Shown here piece by piece: positions 1,275 through 35,662 of a stretch of 64,000 bases of DNA (position 1 is its first letter; each line of letters begins with the position of its first letter). Location: assembly GCA_003281315.1 (NCBI GenBank), contig QCCH01000001.1, forward strand, positions 124,001 to 188,000. Reading direction: 5' to 3'. Origin of the DNA: Prochlorococcus sp. AG-347-K20 (GTDB lineage: Bacteria; Cyanobacteriota; Cyanobacteriia; PCC-6307; Cyanobiaceae). Under the pieces are notes generated by a model. That model did not search any database. It was not told the DNA's origin and worked only from the letters and a program-made list of their open reading frames with translations. A program made the translations under genes and the position numbers.

Positions 1275-1335
1275 CGCTTAAGTCCCCGTTCCATGGCTTA
1301 AGTCGATTTGCGGCTTGCTATACGCAAGTTGAACG
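1275..1335 (-). promoter_or_regulatory. candidate glutamine-II (downstream-peptide) riboswitch
   Basis: Read on the minus strand: P1 CGTTC (1335-1331) pairs with GAACG (1291-1287). Inside it is hairpin P2, CTTGC-GTATA-GCAAG (about 1328-1314), then CGCAAATCGA. CTTAAG (1302-1297) in the P2-P1 joiner pairs with CTTAAG (1282-1277) downstream of P1, giving an H-type pseudoknot. The 3' strand ends 19 nt before the ATG of a 33-aa peptide gene. Known: the downstream-peptide RNA of marine picocyanobacteria is a pseudoknot upstream of short ORFs and belongs to the glutamine riboswitches. Assignment is from architecture and context; a covariance-model search was not run. Confidence 0.55.
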
Positions 1336-1563
1336 TTTTGGTAGCGGTTGCTACAATTTTATAATAACATTCAAGAAAATTATTTGTCTAGGCCTTTAAT
1401 AAACAAACTTAATACTTTAATTAATAAAATGTGTTCCTACTAAAGAAATTTATGTTTTTCTTTATGTAGTTTCTTGCAGGTTACATTTTGTTCGTTTTTG
1501 AGAAGTATTTTTTATTTAATGAACTTTTAAATGTAAAATTCTTAGGATTATAAAATTTGTTTT

Positions 1564-25916: not shown

Positions 25917-25937
25917 AAAAATAAGTTAGAGTTAGAT

Positions 25938-26113
25938 TACTGGATCTTTGGTTAAGTTCTTCTTTATGTGCTCTGATCTGACTCTCTTTCGACATGAGGA
26001 GACTGTCGTGATGCGGTAGTAAACCGATCTTGTAATCGGAAACGAAAGCCCACTTTGAATCCTCTTCTGGCATTTCCAGGTCGATGCAGCAGAGAACTGA
26101 CGGGGATCCGGTG
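25938..26113 (+). ncRNA. ssrS: 6S RNA
   Basis: About 176 nt immediately downstream of purK, the conserved cyanobacterial location of 6S RNA (ssaA). Closing stem ACTGGATC (25939-25946) pairs with GATCCGGT (26105-26112); between lie a long interrupted double-stranded stem and a large central bubble flanked by CTGATCTGACTCTC and GAATCCTC-type strands. It has no open reading frame and a raised G+C content. 6S RNA mimics an open promoter and binds sigma70 RNA polymerase. Ends are approximate. Confidence 0.8.
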
Positions 26114-26165
26114 TTACCTATCAGAATGCTTGCTATAACAAGCTTTTGGTAGGTATTTTATTTTT
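26114..26165 (+). terminator. hairpin downstream of 6S RNA
   Basis: Outer stem TACCTA (26116-26121) with TAGGTA (about 26149-26154) encloses a perfect inner hairpin GCTTG-CTATAA-CAAGC; a T-rich stretch TATTTTATTTTT follows. Probably the transcription terminator or a 3' processing signal for 6S RNA. Confidence 0.6.
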
Positions 26166-26251: not shown

Positions 26252-26299
26252 TTGACGATCCATTTCTAATGTATCTATATTAATAGTACACATGTATTA
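26252..26299 (+). promoter_or_regulatory. sigma70 promoter with LexA-like operator (DUF1651 operon 1)
   Basis: -35 TTGACG (26252-26257), 18-bp spacer, -10 TATATT (26276-26281), then AGTACACATGTATT (about 26285-26298) at the expected start of transcription. The last element is an imperfect palindrome AGTACA-N2-TGTATT matching the cyanobacterial LexA (SOS) box pattern AGTAC...GTNCT in one half and with one change in the other. A repressor here would block open-complex formation. Confidence 0.65.
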
Positions 26300-26306
26300 C
26301 TAGCTA

Positions 26307-26606
26307 ATGACTTTAGGAGGAGCTAATGTTTGGACTAATTTTTCTTACGGTTATCGTAATGAGTCCCCAAGTGGTTGGTTGCTTAGCCCAGACCGCAGCA
26401 GATTAATTTTATTTATAAGGAATAAAAAATCTCCAAGAAATAGTATGAGAATTTTTGCTCATACATATTATGCAAATGATCTTGGTGAGCCATTGGCAAT
26501 TAAATCATCAACTCAAATGTATTTGGATAATGCTTGGGATAAATGGCATGACCTTCAATTAGAAGGTTGGACTTTTGAAGAACTTGAATTACCTGAATCT
26601 GTATGA
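26307..26606 (+). CDS. DUF1651 domain protein, copy 1 (99 aa)
   Basis: 99 aa. Shared with the copy at 28753: start MT-G-ANV-T-F, then P-GWL near residue 22, 'FAHTYYANDLGEP' (about 50-62) and a tail with a conserved W. This is the DUF1651 pattern of marine picocyanobacteria; the function is unknown. Only 8 nt separate it from the LexA-like box. Its stop overlaps the ATG of the next gene (ATGA), so it heads a three-gene operon. Confidence 0.8.
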   Translation: MTLGGANVWTNFSYGYRNESPSGWLLSPDRSRLILFIRNKKSPRNSMRIFAHTYYANDLGEPLAIKSSTQMYLDNAWDKWHDLQLEGWTFEELELPESV

Positions 26607-26743
26607 CTAACTTAAATCCAATTAAAAAGAAATTATCAAAAGTAGATAGAAAGATATCTATGCAAGACCCATCAAAATTATTAGCAGAATTTTTTAATGG
26701 TGTTGTCATTGAACTTGATGAAGAATATAAATATGACTCATAA
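26603..26743 (+). CDS. hypothetical protein, 46 aa, DUF1651 operon 1
   Basis: ATG at 26603 overlaps the stop of the DUF1651 gene (ATGA). The 46-aa product has a basic N terminus (NPIKKKLSKVDRK) and an acidic C terminus (LAEFFNGVVIELDEEYKYDS). Unrecognised. Tight coupling upstream and an 11-nt overlap with the next gene argue that it is translated. Confidence 0.55.
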   Translation: MTNLNPIKKKLSKVDRKISMQDPSKLLAEFFNGVVIELDEEYKYDS

Positions 26744-26885
26744 AGAATTGATAGATCAAGTTTCCGCAAATTTATTTAAACAAAGTGGAAAGTTAGAAAG
26801 CAGAAGATCTTGGTTGGCAATGAGAAATTATCTTGAGCAATTAGATGCCGAACAACTTAAATCCATGCTTAAGAACCACGGATGA
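26733..26885 (+). CDS. hypothetical protein, 50 aa, DUF1651 operon 1
   Basis: I place the start at ATG 26733 (MTHKELIDQV), inside the end of the preceding gene; an in-frame ATG at 26697 would add 12 residues. The 50-aa product is helical and charged (SRRSWLAMRNYLEQLDAEQL near the middle). Unrecognised. Last gene of the putative LexA-controlled unit. Confidence 0.55.
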   Translation: MTHKELIDQVSANLFKQSGKLESRRSWLAMRNYLEQLDAEQLKSMLKNHG

Positions 26886-26895
26886 TTTAAAAACT

Positions 26896-27009
26896 TTATT
26901 TAGTTTTTATTTTTTTCTTAATTCTTAGATAACCGTAAATTGCAAAGCCAACCAAAAACATATCCAAGTAAATATGCCAAGTAGGAAAAATCTGGTGTAT
27001 TAATTCCAT
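26896..27009 (-). CDS. small membrane protein, 37 aa
   Basis: ATG at 27009 shares one base with the stop codon of the upstream ligase-like gene (TAATG), so it is probably translationally coupled. The 37-aa product has one transmembrane helix (about 13-29) and a very basic tail (RIKKKIKTK). Unrecognised. Confidence 0.5.
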   Translation of the reverse strand: MELIHQIFPTWHIYLDMFLVGFAIYGYLRIKKKIKTK

Positions 27010-27758
27010 TAACGTTTTATTGCAACTTGCCAATAAGGATAATCTAAATTTGATTTTTCTCTAATCAATTGTAATTTTCTAGAATTTATTTTTACTACTA
27101 TTCCATCTGTTGGATATTTACTAAAAAGCTTCCCTTCTAGCCATTGTTTTCTAAATACTTCAACTTGGCTCGTAAAGTTGCATGAAATATCCTGAGGGAT
27201 CTTGAAGCCAAGCTTTGAAAGACTCTTTTTGGACTCATATTGGTTAAGTGTTGAATTAAGTATTTGAAATGCGCAGAAGCTAAGATTTTCAGAAAATCCT
27301 TCTTTAGCTCTTAGAAATCTAGAAGCGATTCTCTGGGATATATTTGGACTTTGTTTGGGTGCATATAATTCACCTCTAACTTGAAGAACTCCTCGTAAAG
27401 GGAGATTATTGGGAATGTCTGGGACTTTAAAAAGTTTACTAGTAACGTCTGTCCCTTTTCTTGAAATTGCTTTTTCCAAGGTGCCATCCCTATATTGCAA
27501 AGCAACAGCACAACCATCAATTTTCGGTTCAATTAATAATCTGGTATCTCCTAATAATCCTTTCAAAAATTCATCTAATGAATCCTTTTCTAGTGAAGGT
27601 AAAACTAGTTTATTTTTCTTTTTAAAGTAATCACAATTAGTGTTTGTTCTTAATAAATTCTTTTCAAGTTGGTCAAACTGCTTATCAGAGATTAAAGCAT
27701 TACCATTTCTATAATTATCGTCATACCATTCAATTCTTTCTTCTAGATAAGTCTTCAT
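27009..27758 (-). CDS. stand-alone NAD+-dependent DNA ligase adenylation domain
   Basis: 249 aa, a third of a normal LigA (about 670). N-terminal Ia-like part YDDNYRNGNALISDKQFDQLE (in pieces, about 13-33) binds NMN in LigA; nucleotidyltransfer motif I EPKIDGCAVALQYRDG (about 97-112) has the lysine that is adenylated; VRGELYAP (about 148-155), TDGIVVKIN (about 217-225, motif IV) and WQVAIKR (about 243-249, motif V) follow. It ends exactly at motif V, so OB-fold, zinc finger, HhH and BRCT domains are missing. It may adenylate but not seal nicks, or act with a partner. Confidence 0.8.
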   Translation of the reverse strand: MKTYLEERIEWYDDNYRNGNALISDKQFDQLEKNLLRTNTNCDYFKKKNKLVLPSLEKDSLDEFLKGLLGDTRLLIEPKIDGCAVALQYRDGTLEKAISRKGTDVTSKLFKVPDIPNNLPLRGVLQVRGELYAPKQSPNISQRIASRFLRAKEGFSENLSFCAFQILNSTLNQYESKKSLSKLGFKIPQDISCNFTSQVEVFRKQWLEGKLFSKYPTDGIVVKINSRKLQLIREKSNLDYPYWQVAIKR

Positions 27759-27965
27759 TTAATACGATGGCTTAAGTTTTTGGCTAGGCATCCAACTTGG
27801 TTTATCTATGATCCATTTTTCTCTATCTTCATATTTAACAGTCCATAAAAGAAATGAAGAAATTTCTTTTAGAGTTATGCCAACCAAATATTTTGTCTTT
27901 GGACTTATTGATATAAATCCAAATAATAATATTAATAATATAAGTTTAAACATGCCTTTGATCAT
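27759..27965 (-). CDS. small membrane protein upstream of ligase-like gene, 68 aa
   Basis: 68 aa with a hydrophobic segment (LILLILLFGFISI, about 8-20) and a hydrophilic tail with tryptophans and prolines (WIIDKPSWMPSQKLKPSY). Its stop directly abuts the ATG of the ligase-like gene (stop 27759, ATG 27758). Unrecognised; context suggests a three-gene unit with the ligase-like protein and the 37-aa membrane protein. Confidence 0.55.
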   Translation of the reverse strand: MIKGMFKLILLILLFGFISISPKTKYLVGITLKEISSFLLWTVKYEDREKWIIDKPSWMPSQKLKPSY

Positions 27966-27995
27966 TTAACACTCAGCGTAATTTTTGCAAAACTT

Positions 27996-28253
27996 TTAAT
28001 TAATGCAATTCTTATAACCTTCAATCTTTGCTAGTTCATCAATGTTCAAACCTGTTTCCTCGAGTAAAGTTTTTCCTATATCGTCTTTATTAAATTTAGT
28101 TAAAGCTCCTTTAGTGGAGTACTTAATACATTGGTTTTTATATTTTGATTCTTTGACAACAGGAGATAAATAAAAACCAAACAAGATGATAAAAACCCCA
28201 TAGGTTACAACTTTTCTATGGTTTTTCCACCATTCATAAAATTTATTGGACAC
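27996..28253 (-). CDS. one-helix, two-cysteine protein, 85 aa
   Basis: 85 aa: a short cytoplasmic N terminus (FYEWWKNHRK), one helix (about 15-31), then SPVVKESKYKNQC and a C-terminal GYKNC. The same plan, helix followed by K--K---C and a terminal Cys, is seen at 35663 and 56508. Function unknown; the two cysteines would lie on the outer side and could form a disulfide. Confidence 0.6.
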   Translation of the reverse strand: MSNKFYEWWKNHRKVVTYGVFIILFGFYLSPVVKESKYKNQCIKYSTKGALTKFNKDDIGKTLLEETGLNIDELAKIEGYKNCIN

Positions 28254-28322
28254 GAAAAATAAATGACTATTCTCTATTTTAAATTGACTGTCAACAAATT
28301 ACTTTAGTAATTGAAGGATTGA

Positions 28323-28631
28323 TTAATTTATTGTTTTTTCATTAATTGATCTAACCCAAGAATAATATCTTGATTTTCTAATCCTTTGCTCTTTCGAGAC
28401 TAATCTATCTGCAGATTCTAGGGGTGATTCTCCTTTCTCAACTTTTGTTGTAATAGAAATACCAAAACCTTTTGCTTCAATTTTTGCAATGCCACCCTCT
28501 AAAAAAAATAAAAAAGACCAACCTTTGTTCCATCCTAAATAGAAGGGATTTCGATACATTGCATTCTTTTGGAGATAGTCTTTAAATGATATTTTCCTTT
28601 TCAAGGAGTTACTTGTATTCACTATTACCAA
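28323..28631 (-). CDS. hypothetical protein, 102 aa
   Basis: 102-aa soluble, basic protein. Notable segments are YRNPFYLGWNKGWSFLFF (about 26-43), a beta-like AKIEAKGFGISITTKVEKGE (about 49-68) and a basic tail. No family recognised. Divergent from the second DUF1651 unit, with its start about 120 nt from that ATG. Confidence 0.55.
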   Translation of the reverse strand: MVIVNTSNSLKRKISFKDYLQKNAMYRNPFYLGWNKGWSFLFFLEGGIAKIEAKGFGISITTKVEKGESPLESADRLVSKEQRIRKSRYYSWVRSINEKTIN

Positions 28632-28700
28632 ATAAGAAGTTTACGGCTGATTATTTTTAGAAAGTAATTTTAGTATTTAAATAATTACTTTTAGGAACAC

Positions 28701-28747
28701 TTGACGCTCGGAAGTAGTACATTTATATTTGTAGTACAACTGTATTA
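28701..28747 (+). promoter_or_regulatory. sigma70 promoter with LexA-like operator (DUF1651 operon 2)
   Basis: -35 TTGACG (28701-28706), 17-bp spacer, -10 TATATT (28724-28729), then AGTACAACTGTATT (28733-28746), ending 6 nt before the ATG. Both hexamers are identical to those at 26252/26276, and the palindrome differs from the first box only in its two central bases. An extra AGTAC half-site lies in the spacer (about 28716-28720). Confidence 0.65.
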
Positions 28748-28752
28748 TCTTC

Positions 28753-29043
28753 ATGACTTCAGGAGTCGCTAATGTTCGGACTTATTTTTATCGTGGCAGC
28801 CTTATTGACCCCCCAACTGGCTGGTTGTTTAACAAAAAAAGTGGTTTATTAATTTTTTTTGAGAGTTATAAGAAATCTGTATCTAATAACTTAAAAGTAT
28901 ATACTCATCTTTTCTATGCAAATGAATTAGGTGAACCAGCCCAAATTAAAAATTCAAGACTTCATTCTATTGAGTGTGCTTGTGAAACATGGAATGAATT
29001 AATTTCAGGAGGTTGGCAAATTGTTACTAATAAATTCCAGTAA
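28753..29043 (+). CDS. DUF1651 domain protein, copy 2 (96 aa)
   Basis: 96 aa, a diverged paralogue of the product at 26307: matching MT-G-ANV-T, PPTGWLFN (about 20-27), THLFYANELGEPAQIKNS (about 47-64) and W-L---GW near the end. The two are clearly related but far from identical, so duplication is old or they arrived separately. It lies 6 nt after a LexA-like box. The Cys-containing protein at 29046 follows 2 nt later. Confidence 0.8.
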   Translation: MTSGVANVRTYFYRGSLIDPPTGWLFNKKSGLLIFFESYKKSVSNNLKVYTHLFYANELGEPAQIKNSRLHSIECACETWNELISGGWQIVTNKFQ

Positions 29044-29045
29044 TC

Positions 29046-29279
29046 ATGATCAAGGTAAATCCGTCAAAATGGGAATATCTAAAAGAATCTGCCCTAAAAA
29101 GAAAACGAACAAAGATTTGTATTACTTGCAATCATTTTCGCTACAGCACTACAGAAACTTTTGCTACTATCTTGATCTGTCCAAAATACGAAAAATGCAT
29201 ACCACATGGTGATCATTTACTTAAAGGCTGTGAGTATTGGCAAAAAAATAGGGCGATATTTTCTCCTGAAGCATCTTAA
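29046..29279 (+). CDS. cysteine-rich small protein, 77 aa, DUF1651 operon 2
   Basis: 77 aa starting at ATG 29046, 2 nt after the DUF1651 stop. N terminus is basic (ALKRKRTKI); the middle has cysteines in ICITCNHFR, LICPKYEKC and KGCEYW plus histidines (IPHGDH), a spacing that could bind zinc or an Fe-S cluster. No named family recognised. It differs from the two genes that follow DUF1651 copy 1. Confidence 0.6.
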   Translation: MIKVNPSKWEYLKESALKRKRTKICITCNHFRYSTTETFATILICPKYEKCIPHGDHLLKGCEYWQKNRAIFSPEAS

Positions 29280-35129: not shown

Positions 35130-35662
35130 AAGATTTGTACTTAAAATTTATTTAAGAGTCATAAGAAATCATAGTGATCCCAAAAAAAATTTGTGGATAG
35201 TTTTTCCTAAAAGAAAATAATATTTTATTTTGCACATAAGAATTCAAATTTAATCAACATATTGTGGAAAAACCTGTTGAAAAATGCTTAAAAAGTGGAT
35301 AACTCTTCGGGAGCATTATCAAAACAAGCTTCTCTAGAAAATTTTTTAAGTATTAATACTTCATCAAAAAAAATAAAATATACTTTAAAAAGTATCATAA
35401 TCTGTTGTTATAACTGTGGGATCATTACTTTTAAAAAAAGGCAAAATATCTGTACTAAAAGCTCATGTTGATAAAAAATTAAAAAAGTTTTTTCTTCATC
35501 ATGTATCAAATTGAAAATTAAAGTGAAGAAAAATCAATCTAAACTTGAAATTTTTAATTTTTGTCATAGCTGATTAAAAATTGTTTAATTCGGTTTTCTC
35601 TATGGCAACACTTCCCAAACGCAAGATTAATCAAATAGGTTTGTATGAGTTAAATATTTAAA
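35130..35662. other. 533-bp gene-free AT-rich stretch with DnaA-box-like sites
   Basis: Contains TTGTGGATAG (about 35191), TTGTGGAAAA (about 35263; its complement TTTTCCACAA fits the DnaA box TTWTNCACA) and AGTGGATAAC (about 35295) within some 110 bp of AT-rich DNA. Two short frames (GTG 35417, 32 aa; ATG 35602, 19 aa) are present but not convincing. No dnaN or dnaA is nearby. Confidence 0.4.

Follow-up and report, generated by a model that had tools for sequence, protein, structure and literature searches.

SOS effectors such as SulA, YneA, SidA and TisB are small, lineage-specific proteins that stand directly under the control of LexA. In cyanobacteria, the LexA operator has been described as RGTACNNNDGTWCB, AGTACWNWTGTACT (PMC3091678). 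Genes of the DUF1651 family from three marine cyanobacteria lie within the host response to phage infection (PMC5490813), and use of the SOS system by Prochlorococcus was called unknown in 2010 (PMC2955971). Here, we analyzed a stretch of 64,000 nucleotides (nt) from Prochlorococcus sp. AG-347-K20 (contig QCCH01000001.1, positions 124,001 to 188,000; hereafter the window) that carries two small operons, A and B, each headed by a DUF1651 gene. Both units are very probably LexA-repressed operons of the Prochlorococcus SOS regulon, a reading that covers their regulation and excludes what their products do.

The two operons share one promoter design (Table 1). A sigma-70-type promoter, TTGACG-N18-TATATT in A and TTGACG-N17-TATATT in B, is followed by AGTACA-N2-TGTATT, a predicted LexA operator positioned across the start site, which in B belongs to a tandem pair. 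The operons resemble the described cyanobacterial LexA regulon in the operator sequence, in its position across the promoter, in the tandem boxes, found here at lexA as well, and in an operator common to recA and lexA and weaker at umuD; they differ in their genes, which encode uncharacterised small proteins. The likeness to SulA, YneA, SidA and TisB lies in small lineage-specific products under LexA, and a relation in sequence or fold is no part of it. The first-pass annotation had described the shared promoter and box, diverged DUF1651 paralogues as first genes, different genes downstream (46 and 50 amino acids (aa) versus a Cys-rich protein of 77 aa) and a ligase-like adenylation domain between the units. 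The coordinates of this design were confirmed, and the paralogues, both above the Pfam cut-off, are 38% identical. Its count of one box per operon, however, holds for A only, as operon B consists of a promoter, two tandem boxes, the DUF1651 gene and the Cys-rich gene. The automatic listing of open reading frames (ORFs) places the start of the 50-aa ORF of operon A further upstream, at 26697.

Table 1. Features of the two DUF1651 operons and their surroundings, in window positions
Feature	Position	Strand	Basis or remark
6S RNA	25934-26118		adjoins operon A
Promoter A, -35 TTGACG	26252-26257	+	sequence; -35 kept across 80 aligned rows
Promoter A, -10 TATATT (spacer 18 base pairs)	26276-26281	+	sequence
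LexA box A, AGTACACATGTATT	26285-26298	+	sequence; spans the expected transcription start
DUF1651 paralogue A, 99 aa	26307-26606	+	PF07864, 40.5 bits vs cut-off 22
Small protein of operon A, 46 aa	26603-26743	+	ORF; present in 79/80 related loci; similar ORF after DUF1651 in MED4
Small protein of operon A, 50 aa	26733-26885	+	present in 79/80 related loci
NAD-dependent DNA ligase adenylation fragment, 249 aa	27009-27758	-	PF01653, 70.1 bits; between operons A and B; present in 79/80 related loci
Promoter B, -35 TTGACG	28701-28706	+	sequence
Second, upstream LexA-like box of B, AGTACATTTATATT	28716-28729	+	overlaps -10 of B
Promoter B, -10 TATATT (spacer 17 base pairs)	28724-28729	+	sequence
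LexA box B, AGTACAACTGTATT	28733-28746	+	sequence
DUF1651 paralogue B, 96 aa	28753-29043	+	PF07864, 51.3 bits vs cut-off 22
Cys-rich protein of operon B, 77 aa	29046-29279	+	family unnamed in Pfam, NCBIfam and PHROG at useful E-values
Glutamine-II riboswitch	1277-1338	-	elsewhere in the window
Yfr17	35165-35418		elsewhere in the window

By the sequence tests applied, the box is the cyanobacterial LexA operator. Perfect AGTACANNTGTAYT sites occur exactly twice in the window, both at these operons, against a mean of 0.01 in Markov windows of the same dinucleotide make-up. Genome-wide there are five, located before DUF1651-A, DUF1651-B, recA, an orphan Cys-rich paralogue and a 76-aa ORF; the pattern AGTACANNTGTATT has three perfect sites genome-wide. 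The lexA gene is directly preceded by two boxes, GGTACAAATGTATT and AGTACATATGTTTT, so that recA and lexA of this genome both have the box in their promoters, where its absence had been proposed as counter-evidence, while an altered, weaker form of the operator, AGTACATTTATACT, precedes umuD. A third DUF1651 gene of the genome has a box with one mismatch. The recA box is identical to those printed for AS9601, MIT9215, MIT9301 and MIT9312, and the first lexA box to that printed for MED4 (PMC3091678, Table 1); from these boxes and its close relatives, the window DNA looks like that of a high-light-group Prochlorococcus. A chance origin of the boxes is ruled out by the Markov expectations together with the ORF controls given below. 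Short palindromes can be common to several regulators, and another repressor with a similar palindromic site might take the place of LexA. This is the least probable of the alternatives weighed here, as every perfect site of two genomes (five in this one and six in MED4) lies at promoter position for recA or for one of these small-protein genes, with near-perfect sites before lexA.

The LexA protein of this genome retains the sequences VAAGG, GDSM and TTLK, corresponding to the Ala-Gly bond and to the serine and lysine residues listed as required for cleavage (PMC2921402), and is apparently capable of self-cleavage. It is improbable that LexA binds these boxes without acting as a damage switch, answering to redox, carbon or light state as described for Synechocystis PCC 6803, and that the operons follow the diel cycle. 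Such a role would agree with the lexA RNA of strain PCC9511, which runs a near-identical diel course with and without ultraviolet light (PMC2921402). Unlike the LexA encoded here, however, the Synechocystis protein is devoid of the nucleophile and the cleavage bond (PMC2921402), and mitomycin C raises recA, lexA and umuC in two strains of marine Synechococcus (PMC3744912).

The operons were compared in related loci, namely the best 80 of 284 relatives, all from other genomes. The first-pass annotation had proposed to look for the same box before DUF1651 in other strains. The box precedes DUF1651-B in 80 of 80 loci, as [AG]GTAC-N4-GTA, and DUF1651-A in all 79 loci that have this gene, as AGTAC-N4-GTA; DUF1651-A is intact in each of the 79. 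Variation in the aligned loci falls on the two bases at the centre of the box and on the spacer between -35 and -10 in B, and the box arms and both promoter elements are nearly invariant. The upstream box of B is exact in 71 of the 80 loci and close to the umuD box. Among ORFs of at least 150 aa in the same loci, only one of 82 has a box match, and the upstream stretch concerned contains box A itself.

Only part of the DUF1651 family is linked to the predicted box. This genome has seven DUF1651 matches (six over the cut-off), three with a box and four, from other clades, without one; MED4 also has seven (six over the cut-off), of which two have a perfect box, one a box with two mismatches and four none. 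Across nine genomes, 14 of 44 examined matches have a perfect or one-mismatch box no more than 250 nt away, against 0.07 expected from Markov shuffles, and seven of these 14 boxes are perfect, against 0 expected. The wider count took in the 30 matches with loci among the 39 listed from seven genomes; another listing holds 65 matches, 30 of them with loci, and there L133 was not counted because its contig ends early. In a tree of 60 DUF1651 proteins, the box label (33 rows) requires 10 changes, compared with a shuffle mean of 19.9 and with none of 500 shuffles as low. The tree rests on few columns, with many forks unresolved, and was built without L217 (too short) and without L114-L116, L119, L127, L133, L136, L139, L140, L219 and L222-L224 (near-duplicates, fragments, truncated or weak). 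Seven rows without a box stand among the box rows (L132, L137, L138, L150, L196, L200 and L205); six of them have a site with two mismatches, and L200 only one with three. As a correction to the first-pass annotation, the box marks only part of the DUF1651 family (three of the seven matches in this genome), and the Cys-rich partner is the more constant member. Likewise, of the "uncharacterised SOS-type response" that it proposed, membership of the LexA regulon is retained on sequence grounds and the idea of a separate response is dropped, as the operons look like ordinary members of that regulon.

A single viral-contig match was obtained for DUF1651. It is close to DUF1651-A, lies at a contig end and has the same box (L113:3400-4290); by eye, the preceding stretch could be taken for the 3' end of a tRNA, but ARAGORN finds no tRNA there. 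The Cys-rich family has no match on viral contigs, and a PHROG search returned none to DUF1651; on these three results a viral origin was rejected. In L118 and L120-L125, from several genera, inspection by eye shows a hairpin-like stretch followed by a T run that separates the box from DUF1651 and could act as an attenuator or mark a LexA-driven short RNA; the hairpin of L118, the sole locus folded, has a z-score of -1.40.

The Cys-rich family is more strongly linked to the predicted box than DUF1651. A profile of eight members had listed matches in 71 of the 81 genomes sampled and in 36 of the 40 genera, and the family has no counterpart in Pfam, NCBIfam or PHROG at useful E-values. In the loci of the best 30 of well over 100 matches listed, an upstream box with at most one mismatch is present in 25 (0.1 expected) and a perfect box in 11 (0 expected). 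ORFs of at least 120 aa in the same loci, with the upstream region of the target masked, have a box in one case of 76 and no perfect one; the first, unmasked control gave nine of 123 with at most one mismatch, two of them perfect. The positions invariant among the eight members (C-x2-C-x-H-F, C, P-x-G-x-H-L and C-x2-W) comprise Cys and His residues that suggest metal binding. In several other genera, the box is followed by an ORF of 65-72 aa (SPYAxFxAxxW...HVQLAFA) that runs into the 5' end of the Cys-rich gene in a different reading frame. MED4 has a stand-alone 65-aa version of this SPYA ORF after a perfect box (L268:1522-1719, at 326.7 kb), which argues that it is a real gene. In L126, L130, L134 and L135, DUF1651 follows the Cys-rich gene; L130 and L134 add an ORF of 54-59 aa after DUF1651, similar by eye to the 50-aa protein of operon A. 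As a guess, SYNW1405/sync1474, which are induced by mitomycin (PMC3744912), might be the Cys-rich gene.

The closest link to phage infection is found in MED4. Genes of the host response, among them PMM0684, PMM0819 and SYNW1658 (PMC5490813, PMC2518516), belong to the same protein family as the first genes of operons A and B, and PMM0684 has the same place as operon A, after purK and 6S RNA. The order at this MED4 locus is purK, 6S RNA, a perfect box, AGTACACCTGTATT, DUF1651, an ORF like that of 46 aa (listed with 45 aa) and a Cys-rich gene of 76 aa. PMM0684 has been placed directly after purK and yfr7 (PMC1242208), and by position the DUF1651 gene of this locus is PMM0684. A second MED4 DUF1651 gene (774489-774689, minus strand), closely similar to paralogue A and also with a perfect box, is by position probably PMM0819. 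MED4 has perfect boxes in six places, upstream of recA, both of the DUF1651 genes just described, an orphan Cys-rich gene, the 65-aa SPYA ORF and a gene resembling those of small membrane proteins. Induction by phage has been reported for PMM0684 (phage P-SSP7) and PMM0685, with the nearby PMM0686 giving the most induced host mRNA (PMC2518516); PMM0819 also takes part in the phage response (PMC5490813). Phage infection can raise SOS genes, as reported for a SAR11 host (PMC12753301). Neither LexA nor SOS occurs in the main text of PMC5490813, and Table 1 and the main text of PMC3091678, whose supplementary tables were outside the scope, do not list PMM0684 or PMM0819.

Several observations weigh against the assignment of these operons to the SOS regulon. 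Mitomycin C raises only 10 of the 46 WH8102 genes and 15 of the 27 CC9311 genes with computer-predicted LexA boxes (PMC3744912). The Cys-rich gene of operon B is evidently decaying; it is truncated in 17 of the 80 related loci, with one more running off its contig, and the window copy is without one Cys kept by six of seven other aligned members. The AGTACANNTGTATT pattern with one mismatch is not enriched genome-wide, as it has 23 matches and its reversed control 20, and many mismatched places fall within other open frames of the genome. Weak matches therefore mean little, and only near-perfect sites in promoter position are informative; in MED4, AGTACANNTGTAYT with one mismatch gave 27 against 16. 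Finally, WH8109 has a DUF1651 gene at 420 kb whose position suggests that it may be the phage-induced Syncc8109_0491; in 1500 nt it shows no box with two mismatches or fewer, and its only site has three. This candidate would fit an account in which the genes are phage-response genes first, switched on by phages for their own benefit through another route to which the box adds little. Such an account is highly improbable, since in MED4 perfect boxes precede both the gene in the place of PMM0684 and the one that is probably PMM0819 but none of the four copies of other clades, and strains of many genera retain the box.

Under LexA control of both operons, LexA bound at the box would block RNA polymerase. 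DNA damage, or a phage degrading the host chromosome, would lead to RecA on single-stranded DNA and hence to self-cleavage of LexA, upon which both operons would come on together with recA, lexA and umuDC. The DUF1651 protein and the Cys/His protein may then have damaged or replicating DNA, or replication itself, as their target, a step proposed with low confidence; activity of this kind would explain induction by phage infection.

Structure prediction offers limited guidance on the products. For DUF1651, the beta4-alpha core of the model is confident (mean predicted local distance difference test (pLDDT) score 77.8, core blocks 81-92), whereas the Cys-rich model is poor (mean pLDDT 43.3). The top four VIA-align rows for DUF1651 are WGR domains of poly(ADP-ribose) polymerases (PARPs), with Z scores of 5.4, 5.1, 4.8 and 4.5, which may reflect only a common arrangement. 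The first Foldseek rows, Pur-alpha and PC4 with E values of at least 0.2, are not significant, and Foldseek gave no PDB or viral match at E values up to 0.001. The modelled fold thus weakly resembles WGR, Pur-alpha and PC4 domains. The Pfam model of WGR (PF05406), the domain found in PARP1, PARP2 and bacteria, matched none of the window proteins at E values up to 0.1 and none of 12 diverse DUF1651 proteins at E values up to 5, although HMMER filters drop many weak matches. Homology to WGR, a lead from the fold search, was set aside on profile comparisons giving only 1.1% and 0.6% probability. Neither DUF1651 nor the Cys-rich family had a usable match in sequence searches of solved structures; a few designed repeat proteins matched query A7 (best E 6.9e-05) on an 18-residue stretch, a match taken as spurious. 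PADLOC gave no row up to E 1 for either DUF1651 protein or for the two Cys-rich proteins, and only weak rows for the 50-aa protein (0.017) and the ligase-like protein (0.0005).

With considerable doubt, a broader proposal can be formulated. DUF1651 and the Cys-rich protein could be core picocyanobacterial SOS effectors, a DNA-binding protein (WGR-, Pur-alpha- or PC4-like) and its zinc-binding partner, that stall or protect replication at DNA breaks. The later wave of host genes induced by cyanophages could then at least partly be this SOS response, triggered by destruction of the host chromosome and exploited by the phage.

Why cyanobacteria keep phage-responsive DUF1651 genes was called unclear in 2017 (PMC5490813). 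The shared LexA operator links this question to that of SOS use in Prochlorococcus, and both can be tested with a short list of promoters. The analysis also points to a Cys-rich family without a library name that is widespread in the sampled genomes and mostly under a LexA-type box. What appears new, and is well supported by the sequence comparisons, is the placement of the DUF1651/Cys-rich operons in the LexA regulon. In the literature on LexA, Prochlorococcus, SOS and cyanophages, these genes were not found named as LexA targets; supplementary files were outside the scope, and an earlier listing there is possible. Most interesting is the extension to a proposed Cys-rich/DUF1651 SOS module that is found throughout the family and overlaps with the response to phage.

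Operon A is preceded by purK and 6S RNA. The ligase-like gene between the operons shows no sign of membership, because no LexA box was seen in the 200 nt before it and no ligase-like ORF is present in the listed stretch of the MED4 locus.

The perfect box before the 76-aa ORF of this genome (C2:33809-34039; L003:1520-1750) precedes a small protein with one hydrophobic stretch. A similar protein follows a perfect box in MED4 (L267, after 1501; read by eye) and shares the sequence FKFYQKLF...IFPESP...C...VW. These proteins of 76-78 aa are candidates for small membrane proteins induced in the SOS response, and they might inhibit division.

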